From: Desulfocarbo indianensis
GTDB lineage: Bacteria > Desulfobacterota > Desulfarculia > Desulfarculales > Desulfarculaceae
Assembly: GCA_001184205.1 (NCBI GenBank)
Contig: LBMP01000001.1
Coordinates: 62,001-126,000 of the forward strand
DNA length: 64,000 nt
Reading direction: 5' to 3'
Positions within the stretch are counted from its first letter, which is position 1. Each line of letters opens with the position of its first letter. The notes under the pieces are model-generated. The model was not told where the DNA came from, searched no databases, and was given only the letters and a program-made list of their open reading frames with translations. A program made the translations under genes and the position numbers. This document shows positions 6,143 to 46,721 of the stretch, piece after piece.

Positions 6143-6949
6143 ATCAAATACGCCAACGCCAAATACCGGCCGGCCAAATCCCTCCTTATCCTCTGCCTGC
6201 TCCTGGTCTCGCTGCTGGTGCCGGCCCTGGCGGTCCAGGCCGCGGAATGGCCCCGGCCCCAGGGAGCGGTGGGCGATTACGCGGAAGTGATACCCCCCAA
6301 ATACCGCCAGGGCATAGCCGCCGCCGCCACCGAGCTTTGGCAAAAGACCGGGGACGCCCTGGTGGTGGCCACCATTCCCAGCCTGGACGGCGACACCATA
6401 GAAGACACGGCGGTGCGGCTCTTTCAGCAATGGGGCATCGGGCAAAAGGGAGACGACCGGGGCGTGCTGTTTCTGGTGGCCGTCCAGGAGCGCCGGCTGC
6501 GCATCGAGGTGGGCTACGGCCTGGAAGGCCTCATAACCGACGCCAAGGCCGGCATGATCCGCGACCAGGCCGTGGTGCCCTTTCTCAAGAAAAACGATTA
6601 CGGCCAGGGCCTCTACGCCGGCGTGGCCGCCACCGCCCAGATCATCGCCAAGGAGCGCGGCGTGCAACTGACCGGGGTGCCCCAGGTCAACCTGCGCCAG
6701 CCTTCTCGCGGCCTGGCCGTGGGCGGCCTGTTCCTTATCTTCCTGGTGCTGTTCATCCTGCTCACTTCCCTGCGCCGGGGCTCGGCCCGGGGAGTGCTGC
6801 CCGCCATCATCCTGGGCTCCCTTCTGGGCGGCGGCCATCGCGGCGGCGGCTTCGGCGGCGGCGGTGGCTTCGGCGGTTTCGGCGGCGGCGGCTTCGGGGG
6901 ATTCGGCGGCGGCATGAGCGGCGGCGGCGGCGCCTCGGGCGGTTTTTAG
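6143..6949 (+). CDS. TPM-domain (YgcG-like) membrane protein with Gly-rich tail, apparent non-AUG start
   Basis: The reading frame encodes a signal peptide (KYRPAKSLLILCLLLVSLLVPALAVQA), a TPM domain (VGDYAEVIPP, DALVVATIPSLDGDTIED, GDDRGVLFLVA, RRLRIEVGYGLEGLITDAKAG), one transmembrane helix (VGGLFLIFLVLFILLTSL) and a Gly/Phe-rich tail ending SGGF. TPM proteins commonly accompany LemA, as here. No ATG, GTG or TTG precedes the signal peptide: the first conventional start (GTG 6218) falls inside it. AAGAAGG (6127-6133) sits 9 bases before an ATC at 6143, so initiation there, or an ATG misread as ATC, is the simplest explanation. The product is certain; the start is not. Confidence 0.8.
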   Translation: MKYANAKYRPAKSLLILCLLLVSLLVPALAVQAAEWPRPQGAVGDYAEVIPPKYRQGIAAAATELWQKTGDALVVATIPSLDGDTIEDTAVRLFQQWGIGQKGDDRGVLFLVAVQERRLRIEVGYGLEGLITDAKAGMIRDQAVVPFLKKNDYGQGLYAGVAATAQIIAKERGVQLTGVPQVNLRQPSRGLAVGGLFLIFLVLFILLTSLRRGSARGVLPAIILGSLLGGGHRGGGFGGGGGFGGFGGGGFGGFGGGMSGGGGASGGF

Positions 6950-16573: not shown

Positions 16574-16695
16574 ATCGGGCCCTGGGGGGCTGCTCCTCCG
16601 GGCTGACCGCTTATTTCATGAGTGCCGGGGCATTATCGAGGGCGAGTTCGTGGCATCCGGCCCGGCTTGTCAGCCGCCGGCTGGCGGCGGCAGGG

Positions 16696-16935: not shown

Positions 16936-17096
16936 GAACAAAGCCCTCCTTAAAGGGGTTCGGGGGCCCAAGAGATTGCAGGAGCTTAATCTTCGCCGCT
17001 TGCATCTATATTATTATTGTTTAGACCTGGCCGGGGCGGCAAGCGCGCAGCCCAGGGCCCCGCTCGGGTGAACATAATTTTTTAACGGAGGTGCCC

Positions 17097-17963
17097 TTGC
17101 CGGCGCGGGTGGTTTCCTTTCATCCCTTGATCGAGGCGGCCGACCACAGGCTCTTGGTTTCCCAGAGGCCCCTGGACGAGGCCGACCGGGCGGCGGTGGC
17201 CCAGGCCGACGCGGTGGTATTGCCCCACATCTGCCGAAGCGATCTTTACGAAATGGTCAGCGGCCTTAAGAAACCGCTTTTCCCGCGCCAGGCGGCGCGC
17301 CTGGGCCAGGACGGCAAGGTGGGGGCCCTGCGCCTTTTTTCCCGGCTGGGCCTGCCCCAGCCCAGGGGCCTGGAATTCCCGGCGCTGGCCGAGGCCGTCC
17401 GGGCCTGGCGGCAAGGCGGGCTGGCCGCGGCCGGTCTGGAGCCGCCTCTGGTGGCCAAGGGCGCGGGCGGCGGCATGGGCGACAACGTGTTTTTGGCGCG
17501 AAGCCCCGAGGAACTGGAGGGCCTGGCCGGCAGGCTGGACATCGCCTGCGCCCACGGCCCCCAAGGCCTGGTTCTGCAGGAATACGTGGAAGCCGGGGGC
17601 CGCGACTGCCGGGTGATTTTCATCGGCGGCTGGCGGGACGCCTTCTGGCGGGTGGGTCCGCCCGGCGAGTTCCGGGCCAACCTCAGCCAGGGCGGCCAGG
17701 TGGTGCGCCATGAGAACCCAACGGGCCTGGCCAAGGCCAAGGCCCTGGCCGAGCGCCTGCGCCGGGAGGCCGAGCTGGACGTGGCCGCGGTGGATCTCCT
17801 GCTGACCGGGCAGGGCGAACCCTTGCTGTTGGAGATCAATCATTATTTCGGCCGCGAGGCCATGGGCGGCGGCGAGGTTTTCCGAAGCCGCTATTTCCGG
17901 GCGGTGCAGGGCTGGCTGGCCGGCCTGGGCATCGATCCCAGCCTGGTGCGCTTCGTCCAATAA
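17097..17963 (+). CDS. RimK-like ATP-grasp ligase
   Basis: 288 residues from a TTG at 17097, chosen because GGAGG (17087-17091) is 5 bases upstream; a GTG at 17091 overlaps that site. The ATP-grasp core has PPLVAKGAGGGMGDNVFLA (nucleotide loop), LVLQEYVEAGGRDCRVIFIG, VAAVDLLLTGQGEPLLLEIN (metal-binding Glu/Asn) and HYFGREAMGG. It resembles RimK/glutathione-synthase-type enzymes that join an amine to an acyl phosphate. The N-terminal about 80 residues (SFHPLIEAADHRLLV) are family-specific. No neighbour reveals the substrate. Confidence 0.8.
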   Translation: MPARVVSFHPLIEAADHRLLVSQRPLDEADRAAVAQADAVVLPHICRSDLYEMVSGLKKPLFPRQAARLGQDGKVGALRLFSRLGLPQPRGLEFPALAEAVRAWRQGGLAAAGLEPPLVAKGAGGGMGDNVFLARSPEELEGLAGRLDIACAHGPQGLVLQEYVEAGGRDCRVIFIGGWRDAFWRVGPPGEFRANLSQGGQVVRHENPTGLAKAKALAERLRREAELDVAAVDLLLTGQGEPLLLEINHYFGREAMGGGEVFRSRYFRAVQGWLAGLGIDPSLVRFVQ

Positions 17964-17981
17964 CAGCCTGGCCGGAGGTCC

Positions 17982-18207
17982 GGCCGCGCCAGCCGCCGGC
18001 AAACCAGGCGCCCGGCAAGCAAGGGCCGTTGGTTGGCCCAAGCCGGATCGAGAACCGCGCGCGGGTCAGCGACGCAGGGTGCCGGGTCCGGCCGCGCCAG
18101 CCGCCGGCAAACAAGGCGTCCGGCAAGCGAGGGCCGTAGGCGTAGTTAAAACTACGTCGAGGCCCGAGCGTGGCCAGCAACGCAGGGTGCCGGCGGCTGG
18201 CGCGGCC
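17982..18207. repeat. Tandem hairpin repeat, second family of the structured module
   Basis: Two imperfect copies of about 107-118 bases. Both begin with GGCCGCGCCAGCCGCCGGC (17982-18000 and 18090-18108). The second ends with the perfect reverse complement (18189-18207), a 19-bp terminal stem. Inside the second copy GGGCC pairs with GGCCC around a CGTAGTT/AACTACG stem. The flanking boxes AAGGCGTCCGGCAAGC and GCAACGCAGG are shared with the 35.9 and 43.3 kb elements. It sits between convergent genes, three bases from the cobO stop, and may act as a bidirectional terminator. Confidence 0.85.
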
Positions 18208-18210
18208 GGC

Positions 18211-18777
18211 CTAGTATTCTATGCCCCGCCGGGCCATATGCCCTTCATAATAGGGATGCTTGCGCTGGACGAACTCGGTGACGTAGTCGGCCTGGTCGCG
18301 GATTTCCGGCGCGGCGTCCGCCCCGCTCATGACCAGCTCGGTCTTGCCCCGGCAAAGTTCCATCAGGTCCAGGAGCTGGGATTTCTGTAAAACCCCGAAA
18401 AGCAGGGTGTTCAGAATCTCGTCGCAGATCAGCAAATCCGCGCCCTCCTCCGCCGCCTGGCGGGCGAATCGCAAGGCGGATTCGGCGTGCTCGTAATGAA
18501 CGCTGGTGGGGCCCTTGCTCAGGATAAAGGGGTGCTTGCCCGGAGAGCGGTAGGTTATGCCGGGCAGGCCGGCCAAGATCCCGGCCTCGCTGGATTGGCC
18601 GTCCTTCATGAACTGGGACCACACCACCTTCAAGCCCGCGCCGGAGGCCCGCACCGCCAGACCGATGCAGCGGGAGGTCTTGCCCACGCCCTGTCCATAG
18701 CAAACGTGAATGAGCCCGTAGCGCGCCTCCCGCACCGTGTCCGAGCGCTCTTCGGGATAATAAACCCGGTCTCCCAT
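18211..18777 (-). CDS. cobO: ATP:corrinoid adenosyltransferase, divergent CobO paralogue
   Basis: 188 residues. It transfers 5'-deoxyadenosyl from ATP to cob(I)alamin or a cobyrinic-acid precursor. It has the P-loop HVCYGQGVGKTSRCIGLAVR (family consensus GxGKGKTT, here GQGVGKTS), KVVWSQFMKDG, ADLLICDEILNTLLFG (Walker B), ELVMSGADAAPEI and the C-terminal HMARRGIEY resembling the family's GIEY/GVEY ending. Its stop lies 3 bases from the hairpin repeat. It is divergently transcribed from a second, more canonical CobO gene; the P-loop and middle are less conserved, suggesting a specialised substrate. Confidence 0.85.
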   Translation of the reverse strand: MGDRVYYPEERSDTVREARYGLIHVCYGQGVGKTSRCIGLAVRASGAGLKVVWSQFMKDGQSSEAGILAGLPGITYRSPGKHPFILSKGPTSVHYEHAESALRFARQAAEEGADLLICDEILNTLLFGVLQKSQLLDLMELCRGKTELVMSGADAAPEIRDQADYVTEFVQRKHPYYEGHMARRGIEY

Positions 18778-18957: not shown

Positions 18958-19479
18958 ATGGACCGGCGGCGCGGCGTGGTGATGATCAATACCGGCCATG
19001 GCAAGGGCAAGACCACCGCCGCCCTGGGCGCGGTCTTGCGGGCGGCGGGCCAGGGGCTCTCCTGCCTGGTGTTGCAGTTCATTAAAAGCGACGGCGGCTA
19101 TGGCGAGATCAAGAGCCTGAGCCGCCTGCCCGGCGTGGAAACCCGCTCCCTGGGCTTGGGCCTCATGGGCAAGGGCGATTTGACGCCGCACCGGGAGGCG
19201 GCGCGCGACGCCTGGCGCCAGGCCCAGGACGCGGTGCGCTCCGGCGCTTGGGATTTGATCGTGCTGGACGAGCTTTGCATCGCCATGCGCCACGGCTTCG
19301 TCAGCCTGGAAGAGGTGGTGGAGCTGATCAAGGCCAAGCCGGCGGAGCTTATCCTGATAATCACGGGCCGCGATTGCCCGCCCGAGCTTTTTGCCCACGC
19401 CGACGCCGTCACCGAGATGAAGATGATCAAGCACCATCTGAACGCCGGCATCAGCAGCCAGGCCGGGGTGGAATACTAG
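18958..19479 (+). CDS. cobO: ATP:corrinoid adenosyltransferase, canonical CobO
   Basis: 173 residues with the full CobO/BtuR signature: the P-loop INTGHGKGKTTAALGAVLRA, LVLQFIKSDGGYGEI, DLIVLDELCIAMRHGFV (Walker B), LILIITGRDCPPELF, DAVTEMKMIKHHLNAG and the terminal QAGVEY. AAGGAG precedes the ATG. It catalyses adenosylation of Co(I) corrinoids for coenzyme B12 synthesis or salvage. The divergent arrangement with another cobO suggests joint control or two corrinoid substrates. No other cobalamin biosynthesis gene is in the window. Confidence 0.93.
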   Translation: MDRRRGVVMINTGHGKGKTTAALGAVLRAAGQGLSCLVLQFIKSDGGYGEIKSLSRLPGVETRSLGLGLMGKGDLTPHREAARDAWRQAQDAVRSGAWDLIVLDELCIAMRHGFVSLEEVVELIKAKPAELILIITGRDCPPELFAHADAVTEMKMIKHHLNAGISSQAGVEY

Positions 19480-22386: not shown

Positions 22387-22535
22387 AACCCGCATATTTC
22401 ATGCGGGTTGGGTGGTCATGGCGGATTTGTCGATCATGGTGGGCTGTTTTAAAAACGAGCCTCATATTCAAGGATCGCGATTTGTCACCCCAACCGGCAC
22501 AGCCGGACACCCGGCCTTCATGAAATATGCGGGTT
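22387..22535. repeat. Inverted-repeat element, short copy without the central module
   Basis: 149 bases bounded by a perfect 17-bp terminal inverted repeat, AACCCGCATATTTCATG (22387-22403) and CATGAAATATGCGGGTT (22519-22535). The interior matches the 35.8 and 43.2 kb copies (GCGGATTTGTCGATCATGG, GAGCCTCATATTCAAGG, CCGGCACAGCCGGAC) but lacks their 106-base central hairpin module. The junction lies at a CAGCC that flanks the module on both sides in the long copies. Terminal-repeat bases differing from the other copies change in pairs, keeping the stem perfect. Confidence 0.88.
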
Positions 22536-35806: not shown

Positions 35807-36060
35807 AGCCCGCTTATTTCATGAGGGTTGGGCGATCATGGCGGGTTTGTCGATCAAGGCGAACGGGTTAAAGAACGAGCCTCATATTCAAAGGCCGCGA
35901 TTCGTCGCCTGGACCGGCACAGCCAGTTGGCCGCTGCCAAGGCGACCGGCAAGCCAAGGAGGCAGGTGTAGTTTTAACTACATCGACGACTTGGCGCAGC
36001 CGGCAACGCCGGCAGCGGTCATCTGGCGCAGCCGGACGCCCATCATGAAATAGGCGGGCT
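35807..36060. repeat. Inverted-repeat element, long copy with central hairpin module
   Basis: 254 bases with terminal repeats AGCCCGCTTATTTCATG (35807-35823) and CATGAAATAGGCGGGCT (36044-36060), one mismatch. The 106-base module (35922-36027) has an outer stem GCCAGxxGGCCGCTGCC/GGCAGCGGxxxxCTGGC, an inner CCAAG/CTTGG, and a TGTAGTT-TT-AACTACA hairpin. Compared with the 43.2 kb copy, the C-to-T change in the left arm is matched by G-to-A in the right arm. The right end supplies AG of the TAG stop of the adjacent minus-strand gene. Confidence 0.9.
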
Positions 36061-43164: not shown

Positions 43165-43422
43165 AGCCCGCCTATTTCATGAGGGTTGGGCGGCCATGGC
43201 GGATTTGTCGATCATGGCGGTCTGACTAAAGAACTAGGCCAGCGCTTAAAAGTCGCAATTTGTCACGCTGACCGGCACAGCCAGTTGGCCGCCGCCAAGG
43301 CGACCGGCAAGCCAAGGAGGCAGGTGTAGTTGTTACTACATCGACGACTTGGCGCAGCCGGCAACGCAGGCGGCGGGCATCTGGCGCAGCCGGACGCCCG
43401 GCCTTCATGAAATAGGCGGGCT
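43165..43422. repeat. Inverted-repeat element, long copy with central hairpin module
   Basis: 258 bases bounded by a perfect 17-bp inverted repeat, AGCCCGCCTATTTCATG (43165-43181) and CATGAAATAGGCGGGCT (43406-43422). The central 106-base module (43280-43385) has an outer stem GCCAGxxGGCCGCCGCC/GGCGGCGGGxxCTGGC, then AAGGCGACCGGCAAGC, CCAAG/CTTGG and TGTAGT-TGTT-ACTACA. It begins 15 bases after the GGDEF terminator. Its right end supplies AG of the metG TAG stop. No transposase or open frame is inside, so it is a non-autonomous MITE- or REPIN-like unit. Confidence 0.9.
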
Positions 43423-45500: not shown

Positions 45501-46001
45501 CTATCCGCTTGAGTCGCCTATTTTCTTTTGCAGGAACACCACGCCGAAATCGCGCCCGAACTTGCGGCCGGCCGGGTCCACCCGGCCGCAAGGGGTGAAT
45601 CCCCTGCGCTCATGAAAGGCCAGGCTCTCGGCGTTGTGGGAGATCACCGGCGCGATCAGATTATCCACCCCCCTGGCCGCGGCCGCTTGTTGCAGGGCCT
45701 CCAGCAACCGGGTGCCCAGGCCGCGCCCCCGTTCATCTTGGCGCAGAAAATAGGAGGTCATGGCCGCCCGCCGCATAAGGGGCGAAAAATGAAAAGGCCG
45801 CAGCAAGGCGTAGCCCGCCAGGCGACCCTGCCCTTCGGCCACCAGGGAAGGATAGCCTTGGGCTTCCTGGTGCATGGCCTGAAAGGCCTCCACGCTGAGG
45901 GGCTCATCGAAAAAGGTGGCCCAGCCGCCGGCGTAGCTGTTGAAGATGCCGGCCAGCTCCCCGATGTCGGCTTCCCGCGCGTCCCTGATCAGGTATGCCA
46001 T
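45501..46001 (-). CDS. GNAT-family acetyltransferase
   Basis: 166 residues from ATG 46001 (GAGGAAG upstream; the longer frame to 46046 lacks a site). GNAT features: IRDAREADIGELAGIFNSYA, TSYFLRQDERGRGLGTRLLE with the acetyl-CoA loop RGRGLG, GVDNLIAPVISHNAESLAFH and ERRGFTPCGRV. It resembles the phosphinothricin-acetyltransferase/YncA-type branch. The neighbouring gene encodes a clear paralogue, so this is a local tandem duplication. Substrate unknown. Confidence 0.88.
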   Translation of the reverse strand: MAYLIRDAREADIGELAGIFNSYAGGWATFFDEPLSVEAFQAMHQEAQGYPSLVAEGQGRLAGYALLRPFHFSPLMRRAAMTSYFLRQDERGRGLGTRLLEALQQAAAARGVDNLIAPVISHNAESLAFHERRGFTPCGRVDPAGRKFGRDFGVVFLQKKIGDSSG

Positions 46002-46226: not shown

Positions 46227-46721
46227 CTACGGGGCCAGGTGCTTCTGCATGAGCACCACGTCGAAATCGCGCCCGTTCTTGCGGCCGGCCTTGAGCAGCC
46301 TTCCCCGCTCCACGAAGCCGCGCCGCAGATGAAACGAGAGGCTCTCGCCGTTTTCGGAGCTGACTTCGGCCAAGAGGTTGTCCACGCCCCTGGCCCCCGC
46401 CTCCATCTCCAGGACGGCCAGCAGTTTGCTGCCCAGGCCCCGGCCCCTGGCCGCGGGGTCCAGAAAATAGGTCACCATGGCGGTGCGCCGCATGGGCGCC
46501 CCCGGATGATAGGGCCGCGCCAGGCAGAATCCCTTGACGCGCCCATCCTGCTCGGCCACCCAAAAGGGATAGCCCTCCATGGCCCGGCTCAGGCCGGCGA
46601 AAGATTCCAGGGGCAGCTCATGATCATAAAAGGAAGCGAAGCTCTCCAGGGCGTAGCTGTTCAGAATGGCCATCACCGCGGCCGCGTCGCTATCGCTGGC
46701 CGGCCTGATCTCCAAGCCCAT
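46227..46721 (-). CDS. GNAT-family acetyltransferase, paralogue of the adjacent gene
   Basis: 164 residues. It is co-linear with the downstream paralogue: IRPASDSDAAAVMAILNSYA, VTYFLDPAARGRGLGSKLLA, GVDNLLAEVSSENGESLSFH, LRRGFVERGRLLKAGRKNGRD and a terminal VVLMQKHLAP matching VVFLQKKIG. Both keep the RGRGLG acetyl-CoA loop, so both are probably active. Divergence between them suggests separate substrates. A 225-base C-rich spacer with a 15-base direct repeat separates them. Confidence 0.88.
   Translation of the reverse strand: MGLEIRPASDSDAAAVMAILNSYALESFASFYDHELPLESFAGLSRAMEGYPFWVAEQDGRVKGFCLARPYHPGAPMRRTAMVTYFLDPAARGRGLGSKLLAVLEMEAGARGVDNLLAEVSSENGESLSFHLRRGFVERGRLLKAGRKNGRDFDVVLMQKHLAP

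Follow-up and report, generated by a model that had tools for sequence, protein, structure and literature searches.

The repeat beside cobO in Desulfocarbo indianensis is probably a naked copy of a non-autonomous, ERIC-like mobile element which acts, if it acts at all, as a hairpin transcribed at the 3′ end of mRNAs, that function being inferred. Copies of the module are dispersed and constant in length, their base pairs covary, one strand has a folding advantage and none lies in a gene; they are enriched between convergent genes, are placed at gene 3′ ends and are preferentially co-oriented with transcription. There is also a reasonable case for an ancient superfamily of mobile, RNA-forming hairpins of about 125 nt, present in several bacterial phyla in different transposon carriers, in which the internal-loop boxes would be invariant and probably recognised by some widely conserved protein, and ERIC would be one branch. 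The original prediction saw a conserved structure here, and missed the dispersed mobile repeat, the MITE setting of the copies at 35.9 and 43.3 kb and the homologues in other classes, among which ERIC probably belongs.

Within the window (the whole 64,000-nucleotide stretch of DNA analysed), positions 17980-18209 consist of an intact 122-nt imperfect palindrome and, upstream of it, a decayed tandem copy. The repeat occupies the 247-nt spacer of two convergent genes, one RimK-like with a stop codon ending at 17963 and the other cobO, whose stop codon (18211-18213, other strand) is 1 nt from the 3′ end of the repeat. The features there, and the carrier elements further along, are:

18088-18209, + strand: intact naked 122-nt module, an imperfect palindrome (model R1 120.6 bits, E 5.2e-17 genome-wide; model R2 116.7 bits; fold)
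17980-18087, + strand: degenerate first tandem copy, 5′ arm retained, apical hairpin and 3′ arm gone (repeat search, 52.3 bits, alignment)
18088-18109, + strand: 5′ outer arm (perfect inverted repeat with 18188-18209)
18113-18128, + strand: 5′ box AAGGCGTCCGGCAAGC with the internal-loop motif CAAGGCG (conserved across families)
18131-18135, + strand: middle stem GGGCC, pairing with 18161-18165 (fold)
18139-18158, + strand: apical hairpin GGCGTAGTTAAAACTACGTC, the predicted hairpin being at 18141-18156 (box positions, fold)
18161-18165, + strand: middle stem GGCCC (fold)
18177-18186, + strand: 3′ box GCAACGCAGG (box positions, conservation)
18188-18209, + strand: 3′ outer arm, 1 nt from the cobO stop codon (inverted repeat, gene context)
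17091-17963, + strand: RimK-like ATP-grasp gene, convergent neighbour (PF08443, E 2e-13)
18211-18777, - strand: cobO, ATP:corrinoid adenosyltransferase, convergent neighbour (PF02572, E 4e-41)
22387-22535, + strand: short MITE, module reduced to the scar CCGGCACAGCCGG (repeats, terminal-repeat search)
35807-36060, + strand: MITE with IS1380-type terminal repeats, module at 35914-36035 (repeats, terminal-repeat search)
43165-43422, + strand: MITE with IS1380-type terminal repeats, module at 43272-43393 (repeats, terminal-repeat search)

The module is one long hairpin with a fixed set of internal loops and a short apical hairpin, and the fold of the intact cobO copy reaches -95.6 kcal/mol (z -9.9 against shuffles; z -7.7 for the 43.3-kb module). 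An outer stem with its perfect reverse complement had been proposed, and the arms are indeed 22-nt inverted repeats at 100% identity, pairing 18188-18209 with both 18088-18109 and 17980-18001. The first tandem half had been judged degenerate, which is borne out: the direct repeat (56 nt, 93% identity, 108-nt spacing) covers the well-matched 5′ 56 nt, only 25 of the next 52 positions agree, the apical hairpin and 3′ arm are lost, and the model score is 52 bits for this copy and 121 for the intact one. Folding places the middle stem GGGCC/GGCCC in the same columns as CCAAG/CTTGG of the 43.3-kb copy, within the same architecture, as was claimed. The boxes and hairpin said to be common to the cobO, 35.9- and 43.3-kb copies do lie at corresponding places, but not with the same letters throughout; the 35.9-kb copy reads GCAACGCCGG and, while YGTAGTT/AACTACR is present at 18141-18156, the 43.3-kb hairpin is TGTAGT-TGTT-ACTACA. 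Beside the repeat, two CobO/BtuR paralogues (both PF02572) are adjacent and divergently transcribed, at 18211-18777 (-) and 18958-19479 (+).

Genome-wide searches found about 40 copies of the roughly 122-nt module in the same genome, and the 34 full copies that were aligned are all 121-122 nt long. The boxes that mark these full-length copies thus occur above chance genome-wide, as the original prediction needed, the intact cobO copy alone having an E of 5e-17 over the whole genome. Many copies, including those at 35.9 and 43.3 kb, are inside an element of about 255 bp with terminal repeats AGCCCGCATATTTCATGA, characteristic of IS1380-family MITEs. The cobO copy has no such terminal inverted repeats and is naked, and the module as a whole differs from that MITE family in occurring also in other carriers and without any. 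A form of about 145 bp, such as that at 22387-22535, is without the module, and its scar CCGGCACAGCCGG fits deletion between CAGCC direct repeats. The short MITEs were considered as the ancestral form and this was rejected; the scars at the CAGCC direct repeats differ from one another, which suggests that they are deletion products. A decayed terminal repeat is also present in the window at 16606-16642.

The terminal repeat of the MITE is that of an intact element in a Kordiimonas metagenome-assembled genome, which encodes an IS1380-type transposase (PF13701, E 1.4e-157) and has CTAG on both flanks; the repeat is found in many phyla, and a search of viral contigs gave none. In the genomes that bear the module the IS1380 transposase is absent or in fragments, with no intact copy, and a Y1 (RAYT) transposase (PF01797) had no match in the D. 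indianensis genome nor in four of eight copy-rich genomes of its sister genus. Movement is therefore not demonstrated to be current, and since no bearing genome was found to encode an intact IS1380 transposase of its own, and D. indianensis shows no RAYT either, the present copies may be relics. In one MITE (L045, 345-584) the inner part of the module is inverted, and in two others (L036, L047) there are deletions between internal GGCGCGGCCGG repeats, as expected for unstable palindromes. MITEs with the same TAGCCCGCATATTTCATGA ends in Gammaproteobacteria and other phyla (L108, L114, L164, L187, L203 and others) have different long palindromes, and these too have regularly spaced internal loops.

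There is strong support for the fold of the module, which compensating base changes preserve even between distant bacteria. In a plain MAFFT alignment of the 34 copies, 23 of 50 pairs vary on both sides, with covariation of 0.194 against 0.104 for shuffled and at most 0.075 for slid controls. The set of 48 diverged homologues shows covariation at 33 of 41 pairs, with a score of 0.443 (0.145 shuffled, at most 0.084 slid) and 289 compensated cells against 77. Covariation so rises as copies are added, and the claim of a conserved structure stands. It needs to be kept in mind that the alignment of the 48 was made to the model and is thereby biased towards the structure, and that the copies are related, so that counts from shuffling cannot be read as probabilities; relatedness is preserved in the slid controls. 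The boxes CAAGGCG and CAACGCAG, in internal loops, are near-invariant while the outer helix is rewritten. The + strand gives the better RNA fold in 94% of 121 copies and in all 16 distant homologues. Rfam has no match in the window above its curated thresholds, the best sub-threshold ones being eukaryotic miRNA models, and BLAST of plasmids and phages gave no useful match.

The genomic context was assessed with 121 distinct copies from D. indianensis and the sister genus, with genes called by codon usage. None of the 121 is inside a gene, and 44 of 120 lie between convergent genes, an arrangement that accounts for 15 of 164 among other gene pairs (p 2e-8). Where the spacer is tandem, the + strand is co-oriented with transcription by 52 to 16 (p 1.4e-5). 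Some copies in related species are possibly orthologous and were in part counted repeatedly, which makes the p values optimistic, and part of the convergent-gene bias is attributable to a stop-codon-like target and the absence of promoters there. With MITE copies the stop codons of flanking genes are at the edge of the element, 27 or 105-106 nt from the module; of 24 naked copies, 13 have the stop codon, and likewise YTAR, at a distance of 1-4 nt from their 3′ end, and no clean target duplication is readable. Synteny at cobO is lost in relatives, and hence neither an empty site nor a target duplication can be read for that copy.

Copies are inferred to have spread by transposition in trans, into sites often coinciding with stop codons (YTAR). 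The mover would have been an IS1380-family transposase for the MITE form and a still unknown enzyme for the naked one. Persisting copies would be transcribed at mRNA 3′ ends, for which there are no expression data, and the + strand hairpin may there alter 3′-end processing or stability; a precedent is ERIC in Yersinia, whose reported effect on mRNA stability depends on orientation (PMC2229807). At cobO the two convergent genes would share the module as their 3′ region, with the first tandem copy as a decayed duplicate.

A doubtful but still possible account is that the module is purely selfish DNA without host function, its palindrome being kept because the transposition machinery needs a folded strand, and its placement at stop codons mirroring only the YTAR target and selection against gene disruption. 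The coincidence of MITE edges with stop codons is what this would give, the carriers vary between families, the distribution is patchy, and the element tolerates scars as well as deletions between direct repeats. The co-orientation with transcription is nevertheless unexpected for an element that acts only as DNA, and so is the folding advantage of one strand, though folding of single-stranded DNA or an inherited asymmetry could produce the latter.

That the repeat is instead a bidirectional intrinsic terminator of the convergent pair, locally shaped by selection, is quite improbable. The idea is invited by the great stability of this GC-rich hairpin and its position between convergent genes, but the spacer has neither a U tract nor a terminator call, several other copies come after a canonical terminator that is already there, and the sequence belongs to a dispersed family and is no local invention; for want of the U tract, an intrinsic terminator was rejected. 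Scarcely credible is a REP or REPIN-type repeat moved by a RAYT transposase. Like REP, BIME and REPIN sequences the module is a dispersed, intergenic palindrome, and it has GTAG in its hairpin, yet it is a much longer, single 122-nt palindrome in place of paired hairpins of about 20 nt with flanking tetranucleotides, and the Y1 gene is missing from its own genome and from half of the eight sister-genus genomes. A mobile, ERIC-like element with a possible role as a transcribed 3′-end hairpin remains the preferred reading.

Among 40 relatives the module is confined to D. indianensis and all eight examined members of one sister genus, with at least 28-89 copies per species and about 100 in a deeper search; five other genera of the family yielded no copy. 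At orthologous sites, sister species have either no module or independent, even reversed, ones, and at one empty site the convergent genes overlap in a common CTAG. A search of 395 genomes of the phylum found distant full-length homologues in seven further families, with the same boxes and apical hairpin and with different outer arms and carriers. The carriers are TAGCCCGCATTTTTCACC repeats in one family and a TTGATGAACTCGTAAAAAGTC-type repeat in two; elsewhere the modules are naked or tandem. The module is within this second, unrelated terminal repeat at six loci of those two families (L275, L276, L279, L280, L284, L285), and one distant genome has three tandem modules at 169-nt spacing (L273, 1332-1787).

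ERIC, also known as IRU or RU-1, is a 127-bp repeat of Enterobacteriaceae, E. coli among them, and Vibrionaceae that has been known since 1990-91 and is widely used in strain typing. It appears to be, and on sequence comparison most probably is, a branch of the module superfamily, whose members occur in both Desulfobacterota and Gammaproteobacteria. ERIC was chosen by hand after a shared string was noticed, and was then tested. Sequence-only nhmmer searches for it were too insensitive, and covariance models and pair-preserving permutations were used instead. Model R2, built from Desulfobacterota copies only, matches all eight tested ERIC loci along model positions 1-122, the match boundaries falling at the ERIC ends. 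Its seven best matches are all among these loci (15.9-29.9 bits; the best E, in 8.8 kb, is 1e-4); ERIC flanks give at most 11.2 bits, and the eighth, divergent locus gives 11.1. The published consensus (PMC2759123), used as test sequence, contains GCAAGGCG and CAACGCAGC on one strand, and its box score of 30.0 exceeds the highest value, 27.5, among 5000 permutations preserving base pairs and composition (0/5000), the other strand being null; a majority consensus derived from seven ERIC copies picked by hand does less well (16/3000).

Intermediates exist: when 274 genomes of the class to which Pseudomarimonas belongs (Gammaproteobacteria) were searched with R2 at a per-genome E of 0.01, homologues turned up in 26, about three being expected, and some have ERIC-like ends TATACTC...GAGTATA and apical GGAG...TGA. 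Against a profile of seven such homologues the ERIC consensus has z 13.2 (0/3000) on one strand only, single ERIC copies 2.7-9.1, the cobO module 7.1 and seven unrelated palindromes -1.8 to 1.0. The covariance-model E-values are rough, and the intermediates are few and partly alike.

The module and ERIC are comparable in length (122 and 127), and each is a single imperfect palindrome with a terminal stem followed by a 3x3 loop, the boxes GCAAGGCG and CAACGCAG in the same places, the same strand folding better, and an intergenic, multicopy distribution. Their outer arms differ, as do the apical stem and the letters at the ends; TA termini and TA duplications are described for ERIC (PMC2759123) but not demonstrated for naked Desulfarculaceae copies, and the Desulfarculaceae module, unlike ERIC, is often in an IS1380-type MITE. 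Convergence of GC-balanced palindromes could in principle give such likeness without common descent, and the modest direct model scores (11-30 bits), the choice of ERIC by hand and outer arms that have nothing in common with those of the cobO copy leave room for it. It is unlikely all the same: permutations that keep pairs and composition never reach the ERIC score, only one strand matches, the unrelated palindromes are null and the intermediates have ERIC-like ends.

Small palindromic mobile repeats are a well-known kind (PMC2229807, PMC10969869). Among the closest precedents is the set of 24 'predicted short RNA elements' in Geobacter (Aklujkar et al. 2009, PMC2700814), proposed as regulatory RNA and not as a mobile superfamily. 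They are intergenic and multicopy with a central palindrome GRCGTAGCGCTGCTACGCC as in the apical hairpin, and very probably are of the same superfamily, though only the central palindrome was compared. In open-licence papers nothing was found that joins the Geobacter elements, the IS1380-type carrier and ERIC, and literature searches for an IS1380 MITE with the module, or for the boxes as strings, also found nothing; the kinship across classes, including the ERIC link, appears to be new. The origin, mover and role of ERIC are open, and a superfamily outside Enterobacterales supplies comparative material that is structured, anchored in sequence, in part within carriers whose transposase type can be recognised, and found in certain genera while missing from neighbouring ones. 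Comparison can then address what mobilises the elements, which protein recognises the conserved boxes, and whether mRNA 3′ ends are their site of action.

Other repeats in the window are a 49-bp direct repeat (45525-45573 and 46242-46290, 88%, spacing 717 nt) and a short, glycine-rich-looking GGCGGC array at 6829-6931.
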